A stretch of 62,485 bases of DNA, taken from the NCBI GenBank assembly GCA_011391215.1, contig JAABQX010000048.1:1-62485 (forward strand), read 5' to 3'. Shown here one piece after another: positions 16,564 to 17,555 of the stretch. Under the pieces are notes generated by a model, which saw only the letters and a program-made list of their open reading frames with translations, was not told where the DNA came from and ran no database searches. The translations under genes and the position numbers were made by a program. Source of the DNA: Rhodocyclaceae bacterium. Its GTDB lineage: Bacteria > Pseudomonadota > Gammaproteobacteria > Burkholderiales > Rhodocyclaceae. Each line of letters opens with the position of its first letter. The stretch's first letter is position 1.

Positions 16564-16863
16564 TCAATCCAGTTCCCGCAGAAATGCCGCTCGTGCAACC
16601 TGGAGGTCAGCTTGCCGATCTGCGGGAACCAGTGCCTCGCAATGCGCGTAGAACGCGTCGAAGGATTTGCGCACTGCCTCATTGGACAAGCCGTTTGCCT
16701 TCTTTGCGGTGACGCCAACCTCAGCGCCAATCACTTTCAAAACGGCGTACTTCGGGATCAGTCGCTGCCCCTCTGGACCTGTCGCCAGCAGAGGGCCCGT
16801 TTTAACGTATTCCTGCCCTTGGTACTCGAAGCGGGCATGCATAGGCAATTGATGGATTTTCAT
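16564..16863 (-). CDS. Hypothetical protein (99 aa)
   Basis: MKIHQLPMHARFEYQGQEYVKTGPLLATGPEGQRLIPKYAVLKV... Confidence 0.6.
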   Translation of the reverse strand: MKIHQLPMHARFEYQGQEYVKTGPLLATGPEGQRLIPKYAVLKVIGAEVGVTAKKANGLSNEAVRKSFDAFYAHCEALVPADRQADLQVARAAFLRELD

Positions 16864-17187
16864 AGGCGATTGATCTGACGATGCAAAGTTGTAGAGATCC
16901 AGCTAACGGCAGCTGCTTGGCAAATAGCGCCTCTCCAAGCCAGCAGGATCAAATCCAGCAATAACGCGACGGCGCGATTGCCATCGCCCGCAATAACCGA
17001 TGTCCGAGGGAGGCATTTTGGGTTCCTTGCGCTAGGTGTCTCTATGAACACCATGCTAGTGATCGTTTGAACACCTGTCAACCCTTTGTGCATTTTGCCG
17101 TTATTGGTAGGGTGTGCGGACTGTCATGCTGGTGTAACGCTACGAAAGCATGATGGCCGCGCAACAATAAAAAGGAGAATTGAAAAA

Positions 17188-17247
17188 ATGGAATGTGAAG
17201 AGTTTTTGGAACCAAGACAGGATCAGGAATACGACGACGACCTTTGA
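17188..17247 (+). CDS. Candidate 19-aa acidic micropeptide MECEEFLEPRQDQEYDDDL
   Basis: Strong SD (AAAAAGGAGA) before ATG; short ORF followed about 30 nt later by a terminator-like hairpin. Confidence 0.45.
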   Translation: MECEEFLEPRQDQEYDDDL

Positions 17248-17278
17248 TGGGTCAGGATATTTTTGGAAATCGATGTTG

Positions 17279-17305
17279 AAGCCGCCAATTGGCGGCTTTT
17301 TGTTT
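17279..17305 (+). terminator. Rho-independent terminator-like hairpin
   Basis: AGCCGCC-AATT-GGCGGCT followed by TTTTGTTT. Confidence 0.85.
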
Positions 17306-17555
17306 CTACTCATTACGCCCTGTTGGCCAGCAGATTGTTGTCGGTTGTGCCGTTATAGAAGGCAACAATCATGAACATGAACAACATCGGCAAGTTCGAA
17401 ATGCTCAAGATCTCCAACGAGTTCGATGCCACCTTGACCCACCTGTATGGGGTCAATATGCTGGACGCTGGAGTTTTGTGGCGACGAGACCAAGTTTTTG
17501 ACATCGCATCGTCCGCGTCAGATACTTGCTGTCAGACTATTTCCTGCTCGCCCGA

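Follow-up and report, generated by a model that had tools for sequence, protein, structure and literature searches.

A 19-codon open reading frame (ORF), preceded by a ribosome site and followed by an intrinsic terminator, lies between genes for DUF423 and ProQ-domain proteins in contig C48 of a Rhodocyclaceae bacterium MAG (G000; 2.33 Mb, 76% complete; GCA_011391215.1, contig JAABQX010000048.1; locations in Table 1). The 62,485-nt stretch of DNA analysed is referred to as the window; its source has close relatives in the public genome collection that bear the titles Rhodocyclaceae bacterium and Propionivibrio. The initial annotation had proposed here an acidic micropeptide gene complete with ribosome site and terminator, ending about 30 nt before a hairpin with a U-tract, and all of these elements are present, with 30 nt between the TGA and the hairpin. 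No second plausible gene was found in the gap, in agreement with its description as otherwise non-coding, and a 19-aa product falls below what annotation pipelines report, as had been anticipated. The ProQ-domain gene begins at 17526 on the same strand, ~220 nt past the terminator. On the other side, the minus strand carries a 99-aa ORF adjoining the micropeptide gene (16564-16863; MKIHQLPMHARFEYQGQEYVKTGPLLATG...) with no Pfam match, and a promoter-like TTGACA-N17-TAGCAT lies at 17081-17053 of the same strand.

Table 1. Features of the micropeptide locus (window positions, 5' to 3')
Feature	Position	Strand	Sequence and basis
Predicted PhoB site (Pho box)	17121..17138	+	CTGTCAT / GTGTAAC, 7-nt direct repeats with GCTG between, 11-nt period
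-10 hexamer	17149..17154	+	CATGAT, 10 bp past the Pho box; PhoB activator geometry
Whole promoter element	17121-17154	+	CTGTCAT-N4-GTGTAAC-N10-CATGAT
Predicted monocistronic transcript	17161..17303	+	~141 nt; 5' end placed from the -10 hexamer, 3' end from the terminator
Ribosome-site stretch	17169-17178	+	AAAAAGGAGA; direct reading
Shine-Dalgarno	17172..17178	+	AAGGAGA, ~10 nt 5' of the ATG
Micropeptide CDS	17188..17247 (with stop)	+	MECEEFLEPRQDQEYDDDL, 19 aa; ATG at 17188, 19 codons, TGA at 17245-17247; direct reading and homology
Intrinsic terminator	17278..17303	+	GAAGCCGCCAATTGGCGGCTTTTTG; terminator scan and comparison of homologues
Terminator stem	17278-17299	+	GAAGCCGCC-AATT-GGCGGCTTT, 9 pairs, followed by a T tract

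Homologues were sought by DNA, peptide-pattern and profile searches, which together define a family of 13 loci in 11 genomes: the window copy, one other in the source MAG, and 11 in ten other genomes. A DNA search with 17090-17320 against 61 relatives gave clear matches in five other members of the genus and at the second copy in the source MAG (C84), and weaker matches in a second genus; the matches span promoter and ORF, and every one encodes the same peptide with variant ends (...PKQDQEYDDDL, ...PHQDQEYDDDL, ...PDQDQDYDDDLL, ...PIQEQEYDDDL, ...PKQDQEYDDL) or as the further variant MECEDFLEQQ[DA]DDLDYDDDI. A back-translated pattern, run on one genome per species for 84,980 species, returned 16 stretches, ten with the family peptide (two from one genome) and six in unrelated frames. 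A search of 250 genomes of the family contributed G123 (MECEDFLEPLEGPEYDDDL) as a new member, with G141 (MECEEFLESEPDIEYDDDQ) and G278 (MECEEFLEPVEDEEYDDDL) confirmed. Profile search E values were 4e-11 to 8e-7 for carriers and 0.16 for the next best match, and the weak matches at E >= 0.16 were unrelated or internal to long frames; the DNA and profile searches thus exclude the homology being an artefact of pattern searching. The family consensus is M-E-C-E-[DE]-F-L-E ... [DE]-Y-D-D-[D]-[LIQ] over 18-20 aa, with M1, E2, C3, E4, F6, L7, E8 and the terminal Y, D and D fixed across the 13 loci.

This family is narrow and patchy, since of 399 order genomes only the source matches the strict peptide pattern (0 of 398 others), and among the 19 genus genomes sampled 6 have a clear copy. 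So low a frequency also argues that the Pho response does not require the micropeptide. Searches of Pfam and NCBIfam with two 20-aa homologues as queries returned no family up to E 10, and the PDB holds no related chain. No match was found in plasmid and phage collections or IMG/VR, so there is no sign of a mobile-element origin. Within the genus, PhnJ is found in 0 of 6 carriers vs 3 of 13 others.

A relaxed peptide pattern applied to 399 genomes of the family gave five extra loci, one in an unrelated frame and four at the C-terminal end of a longer protein (MSC[DE]EFLDR...). The latter terminus, MSC[DE]EFLDR[QK]GDFWS (L167, L168, L170, L171), is conserved in several family genomes and lies ~1.9 kb upstream of pstS in G141; it was rejected as a relative of the micropeptide because its Met is internal to the longer protein.

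The reading frame is under purifying selection across species. Nine 19-codon members have a mean pS of 0.81 vs a mean pN of 0.11, so that synonymous change is ~7-fold the non-synonymous (pN/pS ~0.14), with pN biased in the first eight codons of G123, G141, G278 and L052, which were chosen by the search pattern; the genus loci, which came from the DNA search and are free of this bias, show the same pattern, with for example pS 0.38-0.90 and pN 0.04-0.07 against the window copy. Variable nucleotide columns at codon positions 1, 2 and 3 number 1, 0 and 9 over 12 alignable conserved codons. The same frame is open in all loci with its stop in the same place, length variants differ by whole codons, and most homologues have a Shine-Dalgarno AGGAG or a near variant. 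A hairpin and T-tract terminator is found in 10 of the 13 loci, so that peptide and terminator are both conserved, the check that had been suggested for the initial annotation.

Taken alone, an ORF of 19 codons with a terminator behind it might arise by chance, and a simple scan found 3 terminator-like sites vs 2.0 +/- 1.4 in shuffles. That this is a chance ORF above a conserved promoter and terminator element has its small size in its favour and nothing more; the 12 further loci, the shared open frame, the excess of pS over pN, the changes in length by whole codons and the recurring terminator lead us to dismiss it, and conservation in different genera with unalignable flanks makes it hardly credible. 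On these comparisons, the micropeptide gene is a real gene.

Regional conservation among six genus loci indicates which product is conserved. Identity is 81% in the CDS (shuffled, 25%), 56% in the terminator (26%), 48% in the 5' leader (32%) and 23% in the stop-to-terminator spacer, the same as shuffled (23%), and this last value argues that the conserved product is the peptide and not an RNA. The initial annotation had raised a dual-function sRNA, and in the fuller form of this alternative a ~141-nt Pho-induced transcript, dual-function or mainly non-coding, would pair with target mRNAs while the peptide is secondary. Transcript length, a promoter of its own and the intrinsic terminator fit such an RNA, as does the somewhat conserved leader. 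However, the non-coding parts are barely conserved save for the ribosome site and terminator, codons rather than bases are conserved within the CDS, and Rfam, which reports one tRNA only across the window, has no family at gathering threshold at the micropeptide transcript. The sRNA idea is thus not supported by conservation, and we consider it rather unlikely.

ORF maps and Pfam searches show neighbours that differ in almost every genome and are often convergent, with no conserved gene neighbour across the homologous loci. Elsewhere the neighbours include NlpB/DapX with a DUF3108-like gene, an M20 peptidase with LysE, an S24 peptidase with a cupin, a PNPOx-like gene followed by ProQ, a glyoxalase, a sigma70 gene, a nitroreductase and a YchF GTPase. 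This variety supports a stand-alone unit as opposed to a leader peptide and, combined with the terminators present at 10 of 13 loci, excludes a role as operon partner or leader peptide in most genomes. An attenuator, in which translation of the Asp/Glu-rich ORF would control the terminator and hence the downstream gene (here proQ), draws on the terminator 30 nt past the ORF, the same-strand ProQ gene 220 nt further and a same-strand ProQ gene downstream in G013 also. In G014, G012, G001, G123, G278, G141 and G026 (C12), however, the next gene is unrelated or on the opposite strand; with no conserved partner gene, and no conserved antiterminator since the spacer is not conserved, the attenuator is largely refuted by synteny and very improbable.

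Two genomes carry the gene twice. The second copy in the source MAG (G000:C84:948; L045/L090) encodes MECEDFLEPKQDQEYDDL, shorter by one Asp, and has a Pho box (score 22.5; scoring as below) and a terminator in an unrelated neighbourhood. The two copies in G026, a Propionivibrio-titled MAG (L037 and L038, on C12 and C8), have long upstream flanks in common, which points to a probable recent duplication, and an evident intrinsic terminator is lacking at both.

Upstream of the ORF lies a Pho box, absent from the initial annotation, which gives the gene its physiological context. PHO boxes consist of two 7-nt repeats with 4-nt gaps, with CTGTCAT as the E. coli motif (PMC4415409; E. coli sites in PMC10294691). 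In the same genomes the pattern TGTCAYN5TGTCAY is found upstream of both pstS and the micropeptide gene; with at most one mismatch it precedes pstS in 7 of 9 carrier genomes, and its sole exact match in the source MAG, which encodes PstS and a PhoB equivalog above the NCBIfam cut-off, is the pstS promoter. Eight pst-type promoters (G141 included) with the layout of box, 10 bp and hexamer were used to train a promoter matrix, with the genome under test left out. As a positive control, the phoB promoter was correctly picked up in six genomes, 27-32 nt upstream of the ATG, and pstS promoters score ~30-32.

When applied to the micropeptide promoters, the pst-trained matrix finds a site of the same geometry between -73 and -58 relative to the ATG in 12 of 13. 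Nine genus or family loci score 15.2 to 25.1 and G278 12.3, both G026 copies score a weak 8.0, and L052 has no Pho box within 160 nt. With its own genome left out, the window site scores 25.1, which 0 of ~507,000 background positions reach. The source MAG's pstS scores 31.9, the DUF47 gene adjoining pstS 14.1 and phoB 24.8, so the micropeptide's Pho box is as good as that of phoB. The boxes of G123, G141 and G278 are independent support since these loci were found by the peptide pattern alone. A Pho-box promoter is therefore supported by the motif comparisons, which make membership of the gene in the Pho regulon very likely. The exception, L052 (CAIRBC010000082.1), is a 4.8-kb contig of a Nitrosomonadales-titled MAG in which the peptide adjoins a weak calcineurin-like phosphoesterase gene; it may have another type of promoter or be a misbinned contig.

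We consider it probable that this is a stand-alone Pho-regulon micropeptide gene whose soluble acidic product is a protein-binding modulator in phosphate starvation. In low phosphate, PhoR would phosphorylate PhoB, and PhoB~P would bind the direct repeat and recruit sigma70 RNA polymerase to the -10 hexamer, producing the ~141-nt mRNA; the ribosome site would then drive translation of the peptide, and the hairpin would stop transcription before the unrelated ProQ gene. The window peptide has nine acidic residues vs one Arg (net ~-8) and is non-hydrophobic, without a hydrophobic stretch. Given also that Cys3, Phe6, Leu7 and the [DE]YDD end are kept in the family, a short binding motif fits better than a membrane insert. 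By analogy, the peptide may act as a soluble modulator of a protein in the starvation response, and it is in this sense that we infer the small regulatory protein envisaged by the initial annotation. For the binding partner, PhoR, PhoU or another protein of the Pho pathway would be the obvious candidate to begin with, but this is a rather doubtful guess. It is possible, though doubtful, that the family is a new one of soluble acidic micropeptides in Rhodocyclaceae which feeds back on phosphate signalling or storage (e.g. with PhoR, PhoU or a polyphosphate enzyme as the binding target); if so, few functional PhoB-regulated proteins would be shorter than its members. An alternative is that phosphate starvation induces a peptide that is later modified or secreted as a signal, in the manner of a RiPP or pheromone. 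Such a precursor would also be short and Pho-controlled, with invariant Cys and Tyr, but no genome has a linked gene for a modifying enzyme, exporter or receptor, the peptide has no signal sequence, and it is conserved throughout without a division into leader and core, all of which make a precursor improbable.

Other small proteins offer comparisons. YoaI of E. coli, a 34-aa protein regulated by PhoR-PhoB, is a reported activator of EnvZ-OmpR (PMC10294691, PMC11853020). Both are small stand-alone protein genes with a TGTCAT-type Pho box, under direct PhoB control for YoaI and predicted to be so here, but YoaI is nearly twice as long with no apparent sequence relation. YoaI is reported among the membrane-type small proteins, whereas the micropeptide, strongly acidic, is predicted to be soluble. 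Both YjiS and small DUF1127 proteins bind PhoR (PMC12501420) and so act on phosphate control by protein-protein contact, a precedent for such a mechanism, but DUF1127 is a Pfam family (under ~50 aa) and the micropeptide matches no Pfam or NCBIfam model; YoaI and the DUF1127 proteins are analogies, not homologues. SpfP, a 15-aa peptide encoded by Spot 42 RNA, acts on CRP according to the article that cites it (cited in PMC11955535); as described there, it is similar in length, comes from a short single-gene transcript and modulates a protein, as is proposed here, but Spot 42 is also a base-pairing sRNA and the micropeptide locus has no conserved RNA part. The 7-4-7 direct repeat and 10-bp spacing to the -10 are shared with the genomes' own pst and phoB promoters, which precede a transporter or regulator and not a micropeptide. 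In the literature on Betaproteobacteria, we found no Pho-controlled small RNA or peptide.

The gene family, unannotated and below the annotation size limit, is tied by its promoter to a bacterial stress response that is among the most thoroughly studied, and would add a soluble 19-aa form to the few small proteins under PhoB control. Phosphate limitation is a clear condition in which to seek the micropeptide, and micropeptide genes overlooked by ORF callers can be recovered with a pst-trained matrix. Among the Rhodocyclaceae are phosphorus-removing sludge bacteria, and Pho control in such sludge is of practical interest.

Pho-box promoters were also observed before other genes. An exact match to the pattern precedes phnE in G014. 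In the source MAG, a promoter scoring 20.7 (L174; G000:C43) lies 7 nt before a PlsC-type acyltransferase gene whose product resembles the lyso-ornithine lipid acyltransferase OlsA, below cut-off, with lipid remodelling in low phosphate as a possible role. Exact matches lie directly upstream of a response-regulator/SpoIIE phosphatase gene (L142; G012:C7:103241) and of a STAS-domain gene (L153; G014:C438:2140), the latter also with the 10-bp spacing to a TAGCAT hexamer. Coming from two different genomes, this pair of sites suggests Pho control of a partner-switching pathway.
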